The position numbers and the translations under genes were made by a program. A stretch of 64,000 nt of DNA from Coriobacteriaceae bacterium AF08-21. Lineage in GTDB: Bacteria; Actinomycetota; Coriobacteriia; Coriobacteriales; Coriobacteriaceae. Within the stretch, counting starts at the first letter, position 1. The number at the start of each line of letters is the position of its first letter. This document shows, piece after piece, positions 10,801 to 57,344 of this stretch. The stretch spans positions 23,326-87,325 of the forward strand of contig JAQCQR010000010.1 of the NCBI GenBank assembly GCA_027687465.1, written 5' to 3'. The notes beneath the pieces are model-generated. The model was not told the origin of the DNA. It made no database searches and saw only the letters and a list, made by a program, of their open reading frames with translations.

Positions 10801-13800
10801 CGGCCTTCTCCTCGCCGTCCTTAAGCGTGAAAGTCGCCTTGCCGTCCGCGAACGTCACGGCGTGCTCGCCCTTTCCGAAGGTGCCGGAGACGGGCTCGCC
10901 GTCCCCGTCGGCCAGCGCGACCGTGAAGCCGAACTCGCGCTGGCTGTCGCCGCCGACGACCGTCTTCTTGACGGTGAGGCTGCCCTCGCGGGACACCTTA
11001 TTATGGGTCGTCGTGGTCTGGGATTTGTTCTCCCCCACCTTGACCGTGGCGGTGTTGGAGATGTCATCGACCGTAGCGGCATCGGCAGAAACAATCACGT
11101 CGAAGCTTAACGTACCCGTAGCGCCTGCATTCTGTTGACCGAGAGACCAGGTAAGGGTGCGCGTCGCGGCGTCGTAGGCGGCACCGTCGGCAGAACCCTC
11201 AACATAGTTAACGCCCTTGGGCAGGACATCGGTCACCGTCACGTCAGCCGCCTGCGCGGCGCCCCTGTCGTCGACGCTGTTATTGGCCCAGCCGATGGTA
11301 TAGGTGAGGGTATCGCCCACGCCCACCAGCCTGCCATCCACATTGACCTTGGCACCCGAGGCGTCCGCCTTGGTGACGGTCTTGGTGTTGTCGTGCGGCG
11401 TGAAGGTGTTGGTGAAGGTCTTCTTGCCCCGCTCGTTGAAGATCTCGGCCTTAAGGCCGGCACCAGTCTGAGTCACTGCGATGTCGAAGGTGTAGGCATG
11501 CGCATCGTCCTCAATCAGGACATCGCCGCTTGCTTTCTCGGTCACGGTCGCGTGGTAGGTGCCCAGATTGGTGAAGCTGAGCTCGCCAAAGGAAACCTTG
11601 CCGTCCTTGTCATTCTTCGCCTCGATTGGGTAGCCCTCGAGGACATTGCCCGCGCCATCGGTGAGGGAGAGCTCGAAGGTGAATTCCCCCTCCTGGAGGC
11701 CGGGCTTGCGGCCGCCCGCGAGCACCTTGGTGAGCTCGGGGACGGACGCCGTGGCGGGGGCGGGGTCGAAGGTGTTGGTGAAGGCGGCGGAGGCGACCTG
11801 ATCGGCCGAGATGGAGCCATCGGCCCTGGATCCCTCGGCTCCGTTCACCGCGGCTTTGTAGCCATCGGCGGCACGTTCGGTCACCGTGTAGGCGGTTCCC
11901 GCGGGCAGCCCCGTGATCCTCGCCGTCTGGCCATCTTTGAGCTTGAGGGTCGCCTTGCCGTCCTCGAACGTCGCGTCACCGTAGGTGCCGGACACTTTGT
12001 TGCGGCCTGCGGCATCGGTGGCCTCAACCACAAACTTAAATATCTTGTCCGCGTCGACCGCCAGGCCCTCGCGCGCCACGACGGTCTTGGAGACGTCGAG
12101 CTCGCCCGTCTTCACAGTGTTGGTCACGGTGAAGCCGCGCTCGGCGTCGCCGGTGACCTTCGAGCTGTAGCCCTCGACGGGCACCTCGGCCACGGCGTAG
12201 TCGATCACGGAGCCGGACTTGGAGTACTTGGGCAGGCCCTCGAAGGAGTGCTTCCAGCTATTGGACTTCGACAGCTCGGCCGACTCGCCGGTGTCCTTCC
12301 CGTCGGCGAGCAGGCGCACGGTGGCCTTCTCGGCCGCCGGGCCGACCCACTTCTTCTCGACGGGCACCGAGACCTTGGCCGTGGAGGTGTTGGTCACGGT
12401 GAAGCCGCGCTCGGCGTCGCCGGTGACCTTCGAGCTGTAGCCCTCGACGGGCACCTCGGCCACGGCGTAGTCGATCACGGAGCCGGAGGCATCACACTTC
12501 GGCAAGTTAGAGAAAACACCCTCCCAGCCGTCAGACTCGCTCAGGGTGATCGAATCGATGACGGTATCGCCGTTCTTGAGATTTGTTTTGACCTTATTAG
12601 GATGGGGGATCTTAGGGTTCTCCCAGACCTTTTTGACTGGAATGTTGATGTTCTCGGACCTGCCGATGACAACACCGCCGTTGGCGCCGATGCCGCCTCC
12701 CAACGGCGCCGTATTGCCAGAGATCGTCAGCGACGTCTGACCGCGGCCGAGGTTATACACATCCTCGCTCATCACAGATTTAAGCGCGACGTTCGGCGTG
12801 GCGTCGGTAAAGGACAGGGGCTCGCCGTTGCCACCGTCGGGAGAGAATCGCGGGATTTCGGTGTTTGTTTCCGCATAAGTGCCTTCGGGGTTAAACAGCC
12901 CACCGTCTCTGTACCAGCTGACCTTTCCGCCGCCCGGAGCGCGGTTGGCCAAGGTCAGTTTGTATTTGGCGTCTTTGAAGCCGGTGAAGACGAGGTCGTC
13001 TCCCGCCTCATCGGCCGAGTTCCTGGCGATCAGGCCACCGTTCTGGACGTAGACCTTGGCATCTCCGGTCGGGCAGAACCACATGCCGCCGCCCTGCTTT
13101 TTCGCATGGTTATCAACAACGAGAGCGTTTTCGATATGGAGCGTGCTATAGACGAGATACTCGTTGCCTTCGCTATATACGCCGCCACCCATATTCCGAG
13201 CAGTATTGTCCTTGATCTCGCCCGCACTGAGCTTGACGTCATCTGAATAGGTATAGATGCCTCCGCCGGCGGAAGCGGAGTTACCCGATACGGAGCCACC
13301 TTTCATAGTGAAAGCGGTATGGTCCCTACCACCCTGCTGCAGGCCGCGATCGACCACGCACACTCCGCCGCCTTTGCCATCAGAATACGCAATATTGTCC
13401 TCGATCTTGCCGCCCTTGAGGGTAAACTCGGCATTCCCTTCGACGTGCACTGCGCCGGAGGGAGTTCGATTCCCAAGCTTATAGCCTCTGTTGCGCACAA
13501 GCTGACCACCGGTCATCTCAAAGGAGGCTCTCTGGTTACGAGCCTCGCTGTACATGACCACCGCGCCGCCCTGATAGCCGGCGTTATCCTCGATACTGCC
13601 GTTACTCATCTCAAGGTGGGCATCGCCCATCAGCATGATGCCGGTAGACGAAAGGTAATTACCATCGCCGTCTGCGGAGAAAGACACGTGATTCTTACGG
13701 ATAACGCCGCCCTTCATGACAACATGAGCGCCGTCTTTCGCGTGGACAGCGCCGCAATACGCGTCCTTAAGTTCGCACTGCTCGATAACGCCGCCCGTCA

Positions 13801-28225: not shown

Positions 28226-28260
28226 GTTCCGCCGTTCTAACGAACGGCGGACCCGCTCGC
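28226..28260 (+). repeat. Minimal copy of the 3'-abutting structured element
   Basis: Four bases after the nitroreductase stop, CCGCCGTTC pairs with GAACGGCGG. It is followed by CCCGCTCGC, resembling the two ends of the full 145-150 bp element found at 32475-32620, 39391-39539 and 51521-51664, with the interior missing. Confidence 0.7.
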
Positions 28261-31635: not shown

Positions 31636-32337
31636 ATGGAAGAATCGATGCACATCGGCGAGCAGGAAACGAGCCTACAGGACCAGTCCTACCACACCAT
31701 TCGACGCAAAATCGTCTACCTGGACTACAAACCGGGCGAAAAACTGGGCGTCAAGCAGCTTTGCGACGACCTGGATATGGGGCGCACCCCTGTGCGCGAG
31801 GCGCTGGTGCGTCTGGCGCAAGAGGGCCTGGTGCGTACCGTGCCCCAAAGCGGCACCTATGTCTCGCCCATCAACCTCACTCTTGCCGAGAGCGCCTGCT
31901 ACATTCGCGAGCACCTGGAAAAGCAGGTGATTGTAGAGTGCTGCGCCCGTGCCACCTCGGCAGGCATCGAGCAGCTCGACCGAGCCATAGCGCTGCAGGA
32001 AAAGACCATGGCCGAGGAGGATCGCATCGGCTTCTTTTTAAGCGACAACCTCATGCACCGCATGATCTTTAACATCGCGTGCCGCAGCACCGTGTGGTCG
32101 TGGCTCGAGGCGACCAATGCCGACCTGGAGCGCTTCCGCTGGCTTCGCGCCGCCACGCAGAGGCTCGACAATCAGGAGATTGTTAACGAGCACAAGAAAA
32201 TCCGCCGCGCTATCGCCGGTCGCGACCCCATCGAGGCGAGCTTTTTGGTCAGCAAGCACCTGCATATGATGTTCCGCAACCAGACCGAGGTCCTGGACCA
32301 ATATCCCAAGTACTTCGAGACCAGCAAGCTCCGCTAA
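31636..32337 (+). CDS. GntR-family regulator, FadR/FCD subfamily
   Basis: The 233-residue protein has an N-terminal winged helix (about residues 15-85) with IRRKIVYLDYKPGEKLG and RTPVREALVRLAQEGLV. The C-terminal helical FCD domain (about 90-220) contains the metal-ligand type residues DNLMHRMIF and SKHLHMMF. Such regulators usually sense small organic acids. It is divergent from the yeiH-like exporter gene. ATG 31636 has GAGG about 6 bp upstream, while GTG 31612 lacks a good site. A CTGACATATCAG palindrome lies near 31600 and could be its operator. Confidence 0.92.
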   Translation: MEESMHIGEQETSLQDQSYHTIRRKIVYLDYKPGEKLGVKQLCDDLDMGRTPVREALVRLAQEGLVRTVPQSGTYVSPINLTLAESACYIREHLEKQVIVECCARATSAGIEQLDRAIALQEKTMAEEDRIGFFLSDNLMHRMIFNIACRSTVWSWLEATNADLERFRWLRAATQRLDNQEIVNEHKKIRRAIAGRDPIEASFLVSKHLHMMFRNQTEVLDQYPKYFETSKLR

Positions 32338-32376
32338 CCTGCCAAAAAGGGACAGGTTTATTTTGGCAGGTTTTTA
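32338..32376 (+). terminator. GGGACAG-type palindrome acting as terminator of the GntR gene
   Basis: CCTGCCAAAA (32338-32347) pairs with TTTTGGCAGG (32361-32370), followed by TTTTT. It starts at the first base after the stop codon. The loop contains GGGACAGG. Very similar sequences lie at 34841-34870 (inverted) and 39568-39607. Confidence 0.8.
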
Positions 32377-32474: not shown

Positions 32475-32620
32475 AGCGAGCGAGCCGCATTTGCGCCAAG
32501 GTGACGTGAAATGAGAGGGCGCTGACCTTCTGGTCGCGCCCTCGAAATTGAACGTCAGATTGGCGTGAATGCGGCTCGCGCAGCGTCGAGCAGTTCCGGC
32601 GTTTGGCAAAACGCCGGAAC
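32475..32620 (-). repeat. Structured element after glmS (full copy)
   Basis: Read on the glmS sense strand, a 12-bp hairpin (32593-32604 with 32609-32620) begins five bases after the stop. A conserved linker ACTGCTCGACGCTGC follows, then a long outer helix (32479-32498 with 32559-32578, 18 of 20 paired) that encloses TGACGT/ACGTCA and GAGGGCG/CGCCCTC stems. It is homologous to 39391-39539 with paired changes in the helices. Confidence 0.75.
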
Positions 32621-34625: not shown

Positions 34626-34818
34626 GCCGGTCCAAACCACCACAATGGGGACAGGCACCTTTGTGGTGGTTTGGACCGGCGCGGCGGCCTATCCCGGCGA
34701 AAGATCTCAATCTGTAACAGGTAGAGCCGGTTTTGCCGTCCAGATGTTACAGATCGAGACAATTGAAGGCCCGGGCGTCTCAAACCACCACAAAGGTGCC
34801 TGTCCCCTTCGTGGTGGT
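34626..34818. repeat. Cluster of GGGGACAGGCACC palindromes (REP/BIME-like)
   Basis: Palindrome one has perfect 20-bp arms (34626-34645 and 34661-34680) around TGGGGACAGGCACCT. Palindrome two (34784-34791 with 34811-34818) carries the same core inverted. Between them is a third inverted repeat (34705-34719 with 34745-34759, 14 of 15 matches). The arrangement resembles bacterial interspersed mosaic elements. No gene is seen from 34474 to 34933. Confidence 0.75.
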
Positions 34819-34840: not shown

Positions 34841-34870
34841 CAGATAAAACCTGCCAAAATAAACCTGTCA
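34841..34870 (-). repeat. Inverted copy of the CCTGCCAAAATAAACCTGTC element
   Basis: On the minus strand it reads TGACAGGTTTATTTTGGCAG and continues GTTTTATCTG, matching copies at 32350-32380 and 39590-39610. It lies just upstream of the LacI-family gene. Confidence 0.65.
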
Positions 34871-34933
34871 CTTTTTGGTTGGTTTAGGATGCTACAATCT
34901 GGCTTGTACTTGAAACGCATCAAAGGGGCCGCT

Positions 34934-38511: not shown

Positions 38512-39390
38512 ATGCTTTCAGACACCACCGCACCTGCAGAGGGGCTTCAGGACAAACTCGCAGCGCTCGAGCAGCTGCTTTTGGCATACGGACGCGTCGC
38601 CATCGGCTTTTCCGGTGGCGTCGACAGCAGCTTTTTGGCCGCGGTCTGCGCCCGCATCATGCCCGCCAGCACGCTTCTCGTTCACCTCACCACGCCGCTC
38701 ATCGGCACGCCCGAGCAGGCTTCGTTTGAGCGGTCCGTTGACGGGCAGACCAATGAAGGGCCGCATTTTAAGCTCCCCGTGCTCAATCTTTCGGTCGATC
38801 AGCTGCGGCTCCCCCAAGTAGCCTGCAACGATGCCGACCGCTGCTACCACTGCAAGCGCGCCGGCTTTACCGCCATCGTCAACCACGCCAAGTCGCTGGG
38901 CTTTCCCACCGTCATCGACGGCAGCAACGCAAGCGACCGCGGCGACTACCGCCCCGGCATGCGCGCCGCCCAGGAGCTCGGCGTGCGCTCGCCCCTCATG
39001 GAGGTCGGCTTTACCAAGGACGAAGAGCGCGAGCTGCTGCGCGCCTGGGGCTATCCCGTTTGGAACCTGCCGGCAGGAGCCTGCCTGGCCACGCGTGTCC
39101 CCACGGGCGAGGAGCTCACGCGCGAGAAGGTCGATGTAATCCGCACCTGTGAGGACTACCTGCACGACCTTGGCCTAGACCAGGTCCGCGCACGCCTCGT
39201 CGGCGGCTGCATGCATATCGAGGCCGCGCCGACAGACGTTGCCAAGATCGCAGCCCTCGGCAGCACCGCGGTCAACGACGAGGGCAAGGCCCCGCTTCCT
39301 GCCGCCATCGAATCTGCCCTGCGCAACCTAGGCTGCGGCCACATCTCCCCCGAGGTCACCCCCTACATCCACGGCAACATGAACCTGTAG
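38512..39390 (+). CDS. larE: ATP-dependent sulfur transferase LarE
   Basis: The 292-residue protein has the PP-loop motif GFSGGVDSSF (about residues 32-41) and GDYRPG, typical of LarE. The sequence NLPAGACLATR carries a Cys at the position of the sacrificial sulfur donor in Lactobacillus LarE. LarE adds sulfur to the pyridinium dithiocarboxylate precursor of the nickel-pincer cofactor of lactate racemase-type enzymes. No larA, larB or larC lies in this window, so partner genes must be elsewhere or the protein serves another sulfur transfer. It has its own promoter and is followed at once by a structured element. Confidence 0.9.
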   Translation: MLSDTTAPAEGLQDKLAALEQLLLAYGRVAIGFSGGVDSSFLAAVCARIMPASTLLVHLTTPLIGTPEQASFERSVDGQTNEGPHFKLPVLNLSVDQLRLPQVACNDADRCYHCKRAGFTAIVNHAKSLGFPTVIDGSNASDRGDYRPGMRAAQELGVRSPLMEVGFTKDEERELLRAWGYPVWNLPAGACLATRVPTGEELTREKVDVIRTCEDYLHDLGLDQVRARLVGGCMHIEAAPTDVAKIAALGSTAVNDEGKAPLPAAIESALRNLGCGHISPEVTPYIHGNMNL

Positions 39391-39539
39391 GTTGCGCCGT
39401 TTTACAAACGGCGCAACTGCTCGGCGCTGCACGGGCTCCGGGCACGGCAATCTGACGTTCAACTTCACGGGCGCGACCAAAAGGTCAGCGCCCGCTTGTT
39501 TCACGTCACCTTACCGCACCCGGAGCCCGCTCGCTCGCA
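39391..39539 (+). repeat. Structured element after larE (full copy)
   Basis: The element starts at the base after the larE stop. A hairpin GTTGCGCCGTTT / AAACGGCGCAAC is followed by ACTGCTCGGCGCTGC, then a long outer helix (39433-39450 with about 39511-39528), TGACGT/ACGTCA and a GCGGGCG-type stem around GACC/GGTC. Order, spacing and loop sequences match the glmS copy at 32475-32620 while arm sequences differ in compensating ways. Confidence 0.75.
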
Positions 39540-39567
39540 TATGCTCAACCTGGACTGCGTTAACTGA

Positions 39568-39607
39568 CCTACCAAAAAGAGACAGGTTTATTTTGGCAGG
39601 TTTTATC
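39568..39607 (+). terminator. GGGACAG-family palindrome, probable larE terminator
   Basis: CCTACCAAAA pairs with TTTTGGCAGG (one mismatch) and TTTTATC follows. The loop is AGAGACAGGTTTA, very close to the element at 32338-32376. Confidence 0.7.
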
Positions 39608-50729: not shown

Positions 50730-51494
50730 CTATCCCTCGATACGGCTCAAGAACTCACGCGTGCGCTGCTCGCGCGGATGGTCGATAACCTGCTCGGCAG
50801 GTCCCTCCTCGACAATGCGACCGCCGTCCATAAAGACCACGCGGTCGGCAACATCGCGCGCAAACTGCATTGCGTGGGTCACGATTACCATCGTCATATT
50901 CTGCGCCGCCAGGTCCTTAATGACACGCAGCACCTCGGCCGTCAGCTCGGGATCGAGCGCCGAAGTCGGCTCGTCAAAGAATAAGATTTCCGGATCGAGT
51001 GCCAGGGCGCGGGCAATACTCACGCGCTGCTGCTGACCGCCCGAAAGCTCACACGGCACCTTGTTCTCGTTGCCCGTCAGCCCCATTTGCGCAATCAGCT
51101 CGTGAGCGCGGGCTTCCGCCTGCTCGCGCGGACGCTTAAGCACGCGAATCGGTGCATCGGTGATGTTTTTCATCACCGTATAGTGCGGGAACAGGTTGTA
51201 ATTTTGAAACACCAGGCCGAATCGCGAGCGCGCCTGCTTGGGCACATCGCCCTTCGCATAGACCGCGCCCGAACCCGCATCCGTCGCAACGGCAAGGTCG
51301 CCAAACGAGAGCGAGCCTCCGTCGAGTGTCTCGAGCAGCGTGGCACACCGCAGCAGCGTGGACTTACCGCCGCCCGAAGGTCCGATAATCGCCACGACCT
51401 CACCGCGCTTGACCTCGAGTGAGATATCCTTGAGCACCTCATTGCCGCCAAACGCCTTGCGCGCGTTCGTTATCATCATTACCGTTCCGGACAC
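50730..51494 (-). CDS. Polar amino-acid ABC transporter ATP-binding protein
   Basis: The 254-residue protein has Walker A GPSGGGKST, signature LSGGQQQRV, Walker B ILFFDEPTSALD and switch His in VTHAMQFA, all canonical for the amino-acid importer (GlnQ/ArtP) family. It powers uptake with the permease and binding protein upstream. The start is GTG 51494, because GGAGG lies about 6 bp upstream; ATG 51506 would bury the ribosome site. A 145-bp structured element separates it from the permease gene. Confidence 0.9.
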   Translation of the reverse strand: MSGTVMMITNARKAFGGNEVLKDISLEVKRGEVVAIIGPSGGGKSTLLRCATLLETLDGGSLSFGDLAVATDAGSGAVYAKGDVPKQARSRFGLVFQNYNLFPHYTVMKNITDAPIRVLKRPREQAEARAHELIAQMGLTGNENKVPCELSGGQQQRVSIARALALDPEILFFDEPTSALDPELTAEVLRVIKDLAAQNMTMVIVTHAMQFARDVADRVVFMDGGRIVEEGPAEQVIDHPREQRTREFLSRIEG

Positions 51495-51520
51495 GGGAAC
51501 CTCCATGTGTTTGAGAAGTC

Positions 51521-51664
51521 AGCGAGCGTGTGGCTGACGAGACAATGTGCTTCGAAAGAGGAGCGCCGCGTACTTCTGTACGCAAGCGACGGTTTGAGGA
51601 GCAGATTGGCCGTCAGGCACGCGCGCAGCGTCGAGCAGTCCGCCGTTCGCTAGAACGGCGGAAC
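51521..51664 (-). repeat. Structured element inside the amino-acid ABC operon (divergent copy)
   Basis: Starting three bases after the permease stop (minus strand), a CCGCCGTT / AACGGCGG hairpin is followed by ACTGCTCGACGCTGC and an outer helix (GCGTG...CTGACG with CGTCAG...CACGC). Inside lies GCGTAC-TTCT-GTACGC; the glmS copy also has a TTCT loop. The interior is otherwise diverged, but the ends match those of the glmS and larE copies. Confidence 0.7.
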
Positions 51665-53272: not shown

Positions 53273-53413
53273 GTTTGCCCGCCGGGTGCCGGGGCAGGGG
53301 TTAAGTTTGCTGCTCTACAGTCCTGCTCACGGCGGAGAGCACATTAAGTGCTCTCCTGTTCGTGCTGAACTCGCGACAAACTTAACCCCTGCCCCGGCAC
53401 CCGGCGGGCAAAC
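53273..53413. repeat. Long perfect inverted repeat, 37-bp arms with nested hairpin
   Basis: Arms 53273-53309 and 53377-53413 are perfectly complementary. The 67-bp centre contains a further perfect hairpin GGAGAGCAC-ATTAA-GTGCTCTCC. It lies between divergent genes (binding protein and rlmD-like), so it would be in a promoter region. No gene is recognised from 53220 to 53520. Confidence 0.88.
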
Positions 53414-53520: not shown

Positions 53521-54969
53521 ATGGCAGAATCTCGTGCGGAGCGTAAGGCTCGTCGTGCTTTGATCGAGGCGGCTGAGGGGTCGAGGGAGAAAAAATCATT
53601 TAAGAAATCCAAGGCGTCTCAGGATGCGAAGGGTAAGTCGACCAAGAGCAAAGCTAAGGCCAAGCGTTTTGGCTCTCGCCGAGACGAGAATAAGGCACCT
53701 CGGGTTCGCTCCAAGCGTTCGCATATCGATTCGGTTCCGTCTGCGCGTAAGGCCGTGGATCCCAAGTCTCCTTGCTCCATCATGAAAGCTTGCGGTGGGT
53801 GCACGGCGCTCAATCGTCCTTATAAGAAGCAGCTCGCCGCCAAGCAGGCTGCCATGGAGGAGCTTTTTGCTTCGCTTTGTGAGCGTGAGGGCATTGCTGT
53901 AGATCCTATTCGTGGCATGGGTGTCACCCTGGGCGACCCGGGTAAATATCCTGCGCCGCGTGGCTTTCGTCATAAGGCTGCCACTCCCTTTGCTCCCGGT
54001 AAGGAGAGCACTGTCCGTTGCGGTTTCTTTGAGCGCGGCACGCACAAGATCGTTGCCGTACCCGAATGCCCCGTCGAGGCACCGGGCGCCCGACAGATTC
54101 TTAACGGCATCGCGCGTGAAGCTGAGCGCCTGCACATTCCCGCCTTTAACGAGGACAAGCATCTGGGCTTGCTCCGCTATGCCGTCGTCCGCTGCGGTTG
54201 GCGTACCGACCAGGTCATGGTCACGCTCGTGACCGCTCAGCGCGACTTGCCGCATGCGCAGGAGTTCTTTGAGGCTGTCGCCGCACTCGATCCGCGCATC
54301 GTCACCGTCGCCCAAAACATCAACGGACGCCCCGGCAACGCCATCCTCGGCGAGGAAACCCGCATCGTGCATGGCGCCGAATGCATGCGCGACCAGCTGC
54401 TCGGCTGCGAGTTCGATATCTCCCCCACCGCGTTCTATCAGACCAACCCGCAGCAGACCGAGCTGCTCTACCAGCTCGCCATCGACGGCATGGACCTGCA
54501 GCAGGGCGACGTGCTTATGGATGCCTACTGCGGCAGCGGCACCATCGGCCTTTGCGCCGCAAAGGATGCCCAGGACAAGGGCATCGGCATCATGCTGCTC
54601 GGCGTGGAGCGAAACCCCGCGGGCATTGCCGACGCACGCCGCAATGCCGAGCTCAACGGCCTTACCCGCAGCGCTTGGTTTATGGCCGACGACGCCACCG
54701 ACTACATCCTCGATGCCGCCGACAACAACGAGCGGGTCGATGTCCTTTCCATCGATCCGCCGCGCGCCGGCTCTACCCCCGAGTTCCTCGAAGCTGCCTG
54801 CGCGCTTAAGCCGCGCCGCATCACCTATATCAGCTGCAACCCCGTGACTCAAGAGCGCGACCTGCATCAGCTCCTCGACGGAGGCTATCGTCTGCTCAAG
54901 ATCACGCCCGTCGACATGTTCCCTCACACCGACCACACCGAAACCGTAGCGGTCCTCGAACGCCGCTAA
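53521..54969 (+). CDS. rlmD: 23S rRNA (uracil-5-)-methyltransferase, RlmD/RumA type
   Basis: The 482-residue enzyme methylates C5 of uridine in 23S rRNA using SAM. An N-terminal Lys/Arg-rich tail (about residues 1-75) is followed by a Cys cluster (Cys85, Cys91, Cys94, and a later ECPVE Cys) suitable for a 4Fe-4S site. SAM motif DAYCGSGTIG, the DPPRAG loop and the catalytic SCNP Cys are present. The basic tail is longer than usual and may bind RNA. Specific site (U747 or U1939 equivalent) cannot be told from sequence. Confidence 0.88.
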   Translation: MAESRAERKARRALIEAAEGSREKKSFKKSKASQDAKGKSTKSKAKAKRFGSRRDENKAPRVRSKRSHIDSVPSARKAVDPKSPCSIMKACGGCTALNRPYKKQLAAKQAAMEELFASLCEREGIAVDPIRGMGVTLGDPGKYPAPRGFRHKAATPFAPGKESTVRCGFFERGTHKIVAVPECPVEAPGARQILNGIAREAERLHIPAFNEDKHLGLLRYAVVRCGWRTDQVMVTLVTAQRDLPHAQEFFEAVAALDPRIVTVAQNINGRPGNAILGEETRIVHGAECMRDQLLGCEFDISPTAFYQTNPQQTELLYQLAIDGMDLQQGDVLMDAYCGSGTIGLCAAKDAQDKGIGIMLLGVERNPAGIADARRNAELNGLTRSAWFMADDATDYILDAADNNERVDVLSIDPPRAGSTPEFLEAACALKPRRITYISCNPVTQERDLHQLLDGGYRLLKITPVDMFPHTDHTETVAVLERR

Positions 54970-57219: not shown

Positions 57220-57278
57220 CTGTTCCCCTTTCGCATAGGCGCTATTGTACGCTTTAGCCGAGCAAAGTGCCGCAGAAT

Positions 57279-57338
57279 GTTGATTGGGGACAGACTTAAA
57301 TGCGTGAAAACGCTCATTTAAGTCTGTCCCCAATCAAC
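57279..57338. repeat. Perfect 24-bp palindrome with GGGGACAGACTTAAATG core
   Basis: Arms 57279-57302 and 57315-57338 are perfectly complementary with a short GAAA-containing loop. The GGGGACAG core is shared with palindromes at 34626-34818 and 22683-22693. It lies upstream of the aminotransferase start and downstream of the ftsH terminator. Confidence 0.85.
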
Positions 57339-57344
57339 AGATGC

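Follow-up and report, generated by a model that had tools for sequence, protein, structure and literature searches.

A composite palindromic repeat at gene ends in Coriobacteriales, probably a short mobile DNA element

We describe a family of structured repeats at the ends of genes in Coriobacteriales; the family is real and wide, being conserved across two bacterial families of the order, and we think it probable (at roughly 0.6) that its members are short, non-autonomous palindromic mobile DNA elements that fold as single-stranded DNA at replication forks. The element comprises a 145-bp core—a 28-nt hairpin, the linker TCGACGCTGC, and an interrupted helix of about 100 nt—together with a tail of 25-60 nt. 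It would fold into its two-hairpin form while the coding strand of a co-directional gene is exposed, single-stranded, as the template for lagging-strand synthesis, and the folded element may be recognized by its structure and a few conserved bases; a candidate trans-acting enzyme, or template switching at the fork, would then copy the element, or move it, to another gene end. Some copies could lie within the final codons of a gene, as a stop codon is supplied by the hairpin loop or directly behind the hairpin.

The window analyzed here is the whole stretch of 64,000 nt from Coriobacteriaceae bacterium AF08-21, to judge from named relatives a Collinsella near C. aerofaciens, and in it the first-pass annotation had proposed three copies of one layout, behind larE, glmS, and an ABC permease gene (Table 1; gene names are from NCBIfam, the ABC names scoring below its cut-offs). 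That layout is read directly in all three: a hairpin of 27-28 nt, the linker TGCTCG(A/G)CGCTGC (given earlier as ACTGCTCG(A/G)CGCTGC), roughly 100 nt of helix, and the terminal CGCTCGCT. The hairpins do start no more than 5 nt from a stop codon, all three copies run in the sense of the preceding gene, and the arm exchange between the glmS and larE copies, GTTCCGGCG/CGCCGGAAC to GTTGCGCCG/CGGCGCAAC, is present as described. The copies do share a terminal sequence, but GCGAGCG, the form first given, is the complement of what the sense strand reads; conserved sequence also runs about 25-60 nt farther 3' than the end first set. A 3'-UTR location holds only in part, since the ABC copy lies between the permease and ATP-binding genes of one operon. 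In the tail of that copy, GGAGG is accompanied by possible start codons for the ATP-binding gene; at empty ABC sites this gene seems to begin GTGATGAAAATC directly past the permease stop codon. A fourth place in the window, at 28226, has only the hairpin—we read it as a deletion scar, because three relatives have the full element there (L103, L106, L118).

Table 1. Copies of the element and neighboring palindromes in the window; bits are scores under covariance model R1, whose training set includes the three full window copies.
Feature	Position	Strand	Remarks
larE copy, core	39391-39535	+	hairpin 0 nt past TAG stop (39388-39390); 143.7 bits
larE copy, module 1	39391-39417	+	12-bp hairpin; sequence, fold, model R1
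larE copy, linker	39418-39430	+	TGCTCGGCGCTGC, conserved; family consensus nnnTCGACGCTGC; sequence alignment
larE copy, module 2	39431-39535	+	long interrupted helix, apical GACC-AAAA-GGTC, 3' end CGCTCGCT; fold, alignment, model R1
larE copy, tail	39536-39560	+	CGCATATGCTCAACCTGGACTGCGT; form common in Collinsella GACTTATGCTCAACCTGCGGCG
glmS copy, core	32475-32620	-	TAA stop ends 5 nt upstream; 152.8 bits
glmS copy, hairpin	32593-32620	-	
glmS copy, linker	32580-32592	-	
glmS copy, helix	32475-32579	-	
ABC copy, core	51521-51664	-	3 nt past permease TAG; 115 bits
ABC copy, hairpin	51638-51664	-	
ABC copy, linker	51625-51637	-	
ABC copy, helix	51521-51624	-	
ABC insertion, 3' part (tail)	51484-51520	-	Shine-Dalgarno-like GGAGG; ends ...TCCGGAAC
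Fourth, deleted copy	28226-28260	+	hairpin (28226-28253) complete; 3' scar CCGCTCGC
GGGACAG-type palindromes	32334-32374, 34633-34673, 34781-34818, 34846-34886, 39564-39604, 57278-57339		

The window copies fold far more stably than shuffled sequence, with z-scores of -9.1 (larE), -10.8 (glmS), and -3.6 (ABC) and none of 200 shuffles as stable in any case. A hairpin pattern allowing up to three mismatches gave four matches at three places in the window and none in 100 shuffles; it missed the larE hairpin because the loop there is one base shorter. Model R1 was built from 27 copies, three from the window and 24 from the nearest comparison genome (G001, which has 30% of sampled 31-letter words in common with the window), and these aligned almost gap-free. 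RNAalifold and a pair count yielded 51 pairs, with standard pairs in 95.3% of pair cells. Two-sided changes affect 33 of the 51 (231 cells), above all slid controls, and none of 500 shuffles reaches any of five covariation measures; the paired stem changes first noticed between two copies are thus general. In 95 matches (93 distinct) from a second carrier family, f2, which is probably Eggerthellaceae, 1004 cells show two-sided changes, compared with 292 on average after shuffling.

With the larE copy as blastn query, G001 yielded 14 places at E <= 2.4e-5; R1 matched 39 of 43 Collinsella genomes (E <= 0.01). The further copies anticipated for related genomes are therefore plentiful, with 35-53 matches in each of 21 Collinsella genomes and 0-20 in the other 22; in some cases these counts take in a palindrome's match on its other strand as well. 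Of 296 genomes sampled from across the class, 93 match at 1e-6: 37 from f1 (the family of Collinsella), 53 from f2, and three from f5; per-genome numbers from this search are minima, at most 10 candidates per genome having been scored, and so are those of another search limited to 21 candidates per genome. Copies in f2 keep the same hairpin, linker, helix, and TCGCTGAC-like tail start, and their stem sequences differ; in one f1 genome (G088) some matches have no hairpin. The absence of a matching named family, suspected from the start, agrees with Rfam 15, used at gathering as well as permissive thresholds, and with the open-licence literature. Over the whole window Rfam 15 matched only SRP RNA and one tRNA; the larE copy, searched at E up to 5, drew two weak chance-level matches only; and 20 loci with copies of several subfamilies drew none. 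The open-licence literature yielded no Coriobacteriia repeat like this element; one survey, in the part consulted, mentions a single Collinsella motif, upstream of L7/L12, and the element may overlap with the survey's 3161 candidates (PMC8040213).

A 14-base linker pattern, scanned through 21 genomes with one mismatch allowed, matched widely, as did its reversed control (e.g., 51 vs 40 in G013; 37 vs 14 in G001), and no counts were based on it. We gave up the idea of the first hairpin as mainly a stand-alone terminator: 20 of 22 such hairpins listed for G001 have linker and helix behind them, the exceptions being L098 (linker only) and L101 (neither).

Placement at gene ends was surveyed in three one-contig genomes, with the upstream sense frame assigned by a simple GC3-based rule; we used 31 of 56 matches at E <= 1 in G023 (opposite-strand and weak matches dropped), 40 of 41 in G096, and 37 of 43 in G102. 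The element starts between -1 and +5 nt relative to a stop codon at 23/31, 20/40, and 14/37 of these places, respectively, counts that include three doubtful frames in which GC3 falls below GC2 (L168, L190, L261). Even placement over downstream gaps, computed for G023 and G096 with a crude gene predictor, predicts 3.3% and 3.5% within 0-5 nt. The stop codon itself occupies hairpin bases 13-15, in the loop, in eight of 40 copies in G096 and five of 37 in G102, where the frame reads GTT CCG TCG GCC or similar before the stop. Several copies follow a shorter hairpin-plus-linker unit (e.g., L174, L201, L262), and four copies in G023, five in G096, and five in G102 yielded no upstream frame. The 300 bases upstream of 108 copies are called coding in the sense direction for 90 and antisense for nine, with nine unclear or too short. 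Positions within operons occur in the window, at the ABC copy, and in G001, where L099 lies between genes that we take, from their sequence, to be carA and carB. Survival in very short gaps (5 nt at the ABC site; overlapping stops at C1:273301 in G001) may explain some sites.

Two observations on gene ends stand beside this survey. At two loci from different f2 genera (L182 1501-1646 in G102; L205 1501-1646 in G096) the frame that follows a gene ending YYQCNDT..C seems open through the element, which may be translated there, to judge from the reading frame. Another long inverted repeat (AGTTGCGGTGGAATAGTTCCTG...) lies up to about 20 nt past larE-type stop codons at L110, L116, and L103; palindromes in general seem to settle at gene ends.

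Comparison of filled and empty sites among relatives, as first suggested, did reveal clean empty sites. At C1:273301 six of 11 retrieved orthologs are cleanly empty, two have an insertion with CTA to either side (190 nt in L442), and three differ otherwise. The convergent genes of the six empty orthologs, as read, share CTAG, TTAG, or TTAA as both stops; the filled version, in G001 and two other genomes, has TTA or CTA left of the element and CTA right of it. Ten orthologs of the window's ABC site, with flanks 90-98% identical, comprise nine empty sites and one remnant; the insertion is bounded by GTTCC and GGAAC, and its tail is missing together with the element at all nine. No consistent target-site duplication was found: three bases could be counted at C1:273301 and none at the ABC site. 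The larE site is full in 13, partial in three, and without the element in three of 19 named Collinsella contigs (a distant 20th locus, L122, was left out). Among 18 orthologs of the glmS site two are full and 16 have only a remnant resembling the 5' arm; these half-hairpins resemble empty sites, but a deletion scar or a decayed remnant is the better reading.

Orthologous sites also differ in what they contain. At four or more of them (L089, L090, L092, L093) the hairpin, helix subfamily, and tail modules vary between orthologs whose flanks are 86-99% identical, and in some of the orthologs listed a second element begins inside a first: L382 and L426 have it from the apical loop, L376 and L424 from the end of the linker. 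At the L382 place, the same as L172, the 3' half of the first element was not seen behind the second; this hints at template switching at the hairpin tip. Clean empty sites and differing module combinations at one orthologous site point to a mobile, recombining DNA element, and the family resembles MITEs in its dispersed copies, its clean empty sites, and a core of about 145 nt that is too short for a transposase. Small deletions can also give rise to stops in the loop, as in L114. Some of the two-sided change comes from whole-module exchange at one site, so paired changes alone are no proof of selection on RNA. A more specific reading, which we regard as doubtful, is a structure-recognized, strand-polar recombination system of Coriobacteriales that would act on single-stranded DNA without Y1 transposase or reverse transcriptase, swap modular hairpins among dozens of gene ends, and be fitted to translation termination, the stop lying mostly at or in the first hairpin.

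Whether pairing is kept as DNA or as RNA can be judged from mismatches, since a selected sense-RNA fold is expected to show common G.U pairs and rare A.C mismatches. Alignment A2 has 34 G.U and 30 A.C among 1367 cells, and the columns of alignment A3 that are at least 80% paired have 87 and 82 among 3841; over all 51 pairs of A3 the counts are 101 and 239 of 4540, part of this probably being misalignment. SRP RNA of the same order served as a control (30 loci from 57 genomes with a match; 28 distinct rows) and has 121 G.U and 11 A.C among 919 cells—13% vs 1%, or 11:1. The two differ in G.U/A.C ratio with a Fisher value of 1e-13 (80% filter), and G.U pairs are about one fifth as frequent in the element. 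A 90% filter gives 33 vs 8 in A2 and 43:33 in A3; it favors G.U because it counts G.U as paired, and half of the 33 in A2 trace to a single column pair, which has G.U in 16 copies. Nearly every stem pair is Watson-Crick; with G.U about as frequent as A.C, unlike in SRP RNA, the pairing looks to be kept at the DNA level, without clear preference for the sense strand, in a manner compatible with an effect in mRNA. Recent copying rather than constraint could account in part for the low G.U.

This pattern bears on a translation-coupled RNA, in which a terminating ribosome would unfold or bind the stop-adjacent hairpin and so influence release, recycling, mRNA decay, or the downstream cistron. Stops 0-5 nt before the hairpin or in its loop, frequent in two f2 genomes, would place the structure within the ribosome footprint, and the GGAGG of the ABC tail lies ahead of the next gene. 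Against this, wobble pairs are as scarce as A.C mismatches, the element is present or absent between species at the same gene, and the loop stops can have the deletional origin already mentioned; we hold this reading, too, to be doubtful. The choice first offered, regulatory RNA or mobile element, can be narrowed: empty sites, dispersed copies, and clustering at gene ends favor mobility, and the substitution pattern lends no support to a regulatory RNA.

The preferred reading, a mobile DNA element folding at forks, also concerns orientation relative to replication. Lagging-strand synthesis copies the coding strand of a gene that runs in the direction of the fork. We marked replichores by GC skew in G096 (four samples within 0.01 of zero) and G023 (four within 0.01 of zero, and one of 20, at 1210001, against the pattern), with genes from the same crude predictor. 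Copies run with the fork in 38 of 40 cases in G096, compared with 153 of 255 genes (60%; binomial 5e-7), and in 28 of 31 in G023, compared with 169 of 266 genes (64%; P 8e-4; both counted by hand); one G023 copy (1773716) is close to the by-eye boundary, and counting it against gives 27/31 (P 0.003). In G102, 36 of 37 used copies fit three strand blocks that were drawn from the copies themselves, without a skew check, and two of the six matches left out run against the blocks. The bias could come from elements sitting on highly expressed co-directional genes.

Such polarity recalls the parts of the IS608 literature at hand, which describe transposition on the lagging-strand template (PMC6006769), and it is one of the points in favor of REP-like repeats moved by a RAYT of the IS200/IS605 kind, with the first hairpin as the recognition hairpin. 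A hairpin beside TAG or a GTAG-like foot in some copies fits as well, as does the distribution of Y1 transposase (PF01797) in the Collinsella genomes tested, where its presence goes with copy number: it occurs in all seven with 18-48 matches (G001, G023, G009, G022, G036, G012, G034), from copy-rich to middling, and in one of five with 0-1 matches (G039 has one). However, four f2 genomes with from at least 20 to 43 copies (G096, G102, G115, G119) have no Y1 match, and no copy could be called with confidence at 30 loci surrounding Y1 transposase genes, where the model gave one weak hit (E 0.02). The foot is inconstant too: GT[AG]G occurs in some copies, owing to TAG stops, and is missing from many, and TAG among adjacent stops is enriched in G023 (P 0.008), with no such excess in G096 (P 0.65). 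Movement by a RAYT is unlikely, more so than either of the two readings above. Of 20 genomes searched for reverse transcriptase (PF00078), which a group II intron or related element would require, 14 have no match, including G001, G023, G036, G012, and G102; neither enzyme is supported as a general mobilizer, each being absent from several copy-rich genomes, and no mobilizer or autonomous partner came to light in these comparisons. Candidate movers that remain are a divergent enzyme (e.g., a very divergent HUH), a host recombinase, and template switching at the fork.

Integron attC sites conserve structure, leave stem sequence free, and lie in sense orientation past stop codons, and our element is alike in all three respects. 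By this analogy the copies might be solo attachment sites of a tyrosine-recombinase system—sequence-poor, structure-rich sites past stop codons—and the module differences at one site would suit such a system. This is very improbable, as copies flank ordinary chromosomal genes (glmS, larE) whose neighborhood is kept in relatives, no cassette arrays were seen, and the 5'-GTT...AAC-3' around the first hairpin appears to be the reverse of the usual attC core layout. Least credible of all is a polar element of chromosome architecture (segregation, fork, or topoisomerase traffic) with orientation under selection, which the co-orientation in G096 and G023 and the self-drawn strand blocks of G102 would fit, against 0-53 copies within one genus and individual sites that are filled or empty.

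Other repeats share the window. Shorter palindromes with GGGACAG-type cores, e.g., CCTACCAAAAAGAGACAGGTTTATTTTGGCAGG, form a second set, which includes one directly behind the larE copy and looks like a separate REP-like family. Upstream of the ORF at 53521 lies a perfect inverted repeat (53273-53413) with arms of 37 nt and a spacer of 67 nt, and two identical 101-bp direct repeats (12117-12217 and 12387-12487) occur in a 2601-codon minus-strand frame for a large repetitive protein.

In common bacteria of the human gut, dozens of genes per genome have an element of this kind at their 3' end; as the elements differ between close relatives, they constitute a source of variation, both regulatory and C-terminal, that escapes gene-centered annotation. 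The comparison of G.U with A.C cautions that covariation in a repeat family, even when strong, is not in itself a sign of RNA, and orthologous empty sites give a direct handle on finding the mobilizer.

Among known systems, REP, BIME, and REPIN sequences with their RAYTs are the closest in habit, being dispersed extragenic palindromes downstream of genes that are hairpin-based and follow a lagging-strand logic; they measure 20-40 bp, whereas our element is built on a 145-nt core in which a fixed linker separates two hairpins, does not have the constant GTAG foot, and abounds in four genomes without Y1. The CGTC-tagged REPs (Di Nocera et al. 2013, PMC3733652) are, in the portion of that report available to us, likewise palindromes with no dedicated transposase, and CGTC occurs in the reverse complement of our linker; theirs have stems of 8-9 bp and a tail that is mostly CCA, and the same portion names five phyla, Actinobacteria not among them, and mentions neither Collinsella nor Eggerthella. 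Enterobacterial RU-1/ERIC and RU-2/YPAL (Delihas 2007, PMC2759123) are, as far as the text consulted goes, non-autonomous intergenic palindromic elements of 127-168 bp, and one RU-1 copy is fused to the 3' end of a gene and replaces its stop codon. Their sequence is different, and that text shows no stop-adjacent rule for RU; the stems of our element are nearly free in sequence, and it spans two bacterial families. We place the element among the small palindromic repeats of bacteria; what is new relative to REP and ERIC/RU is the combination of a composite two-hairpin form, stems nearly free of sequence constraint, a mostly sense orientation at stop codons, and polarity with respect to replication.
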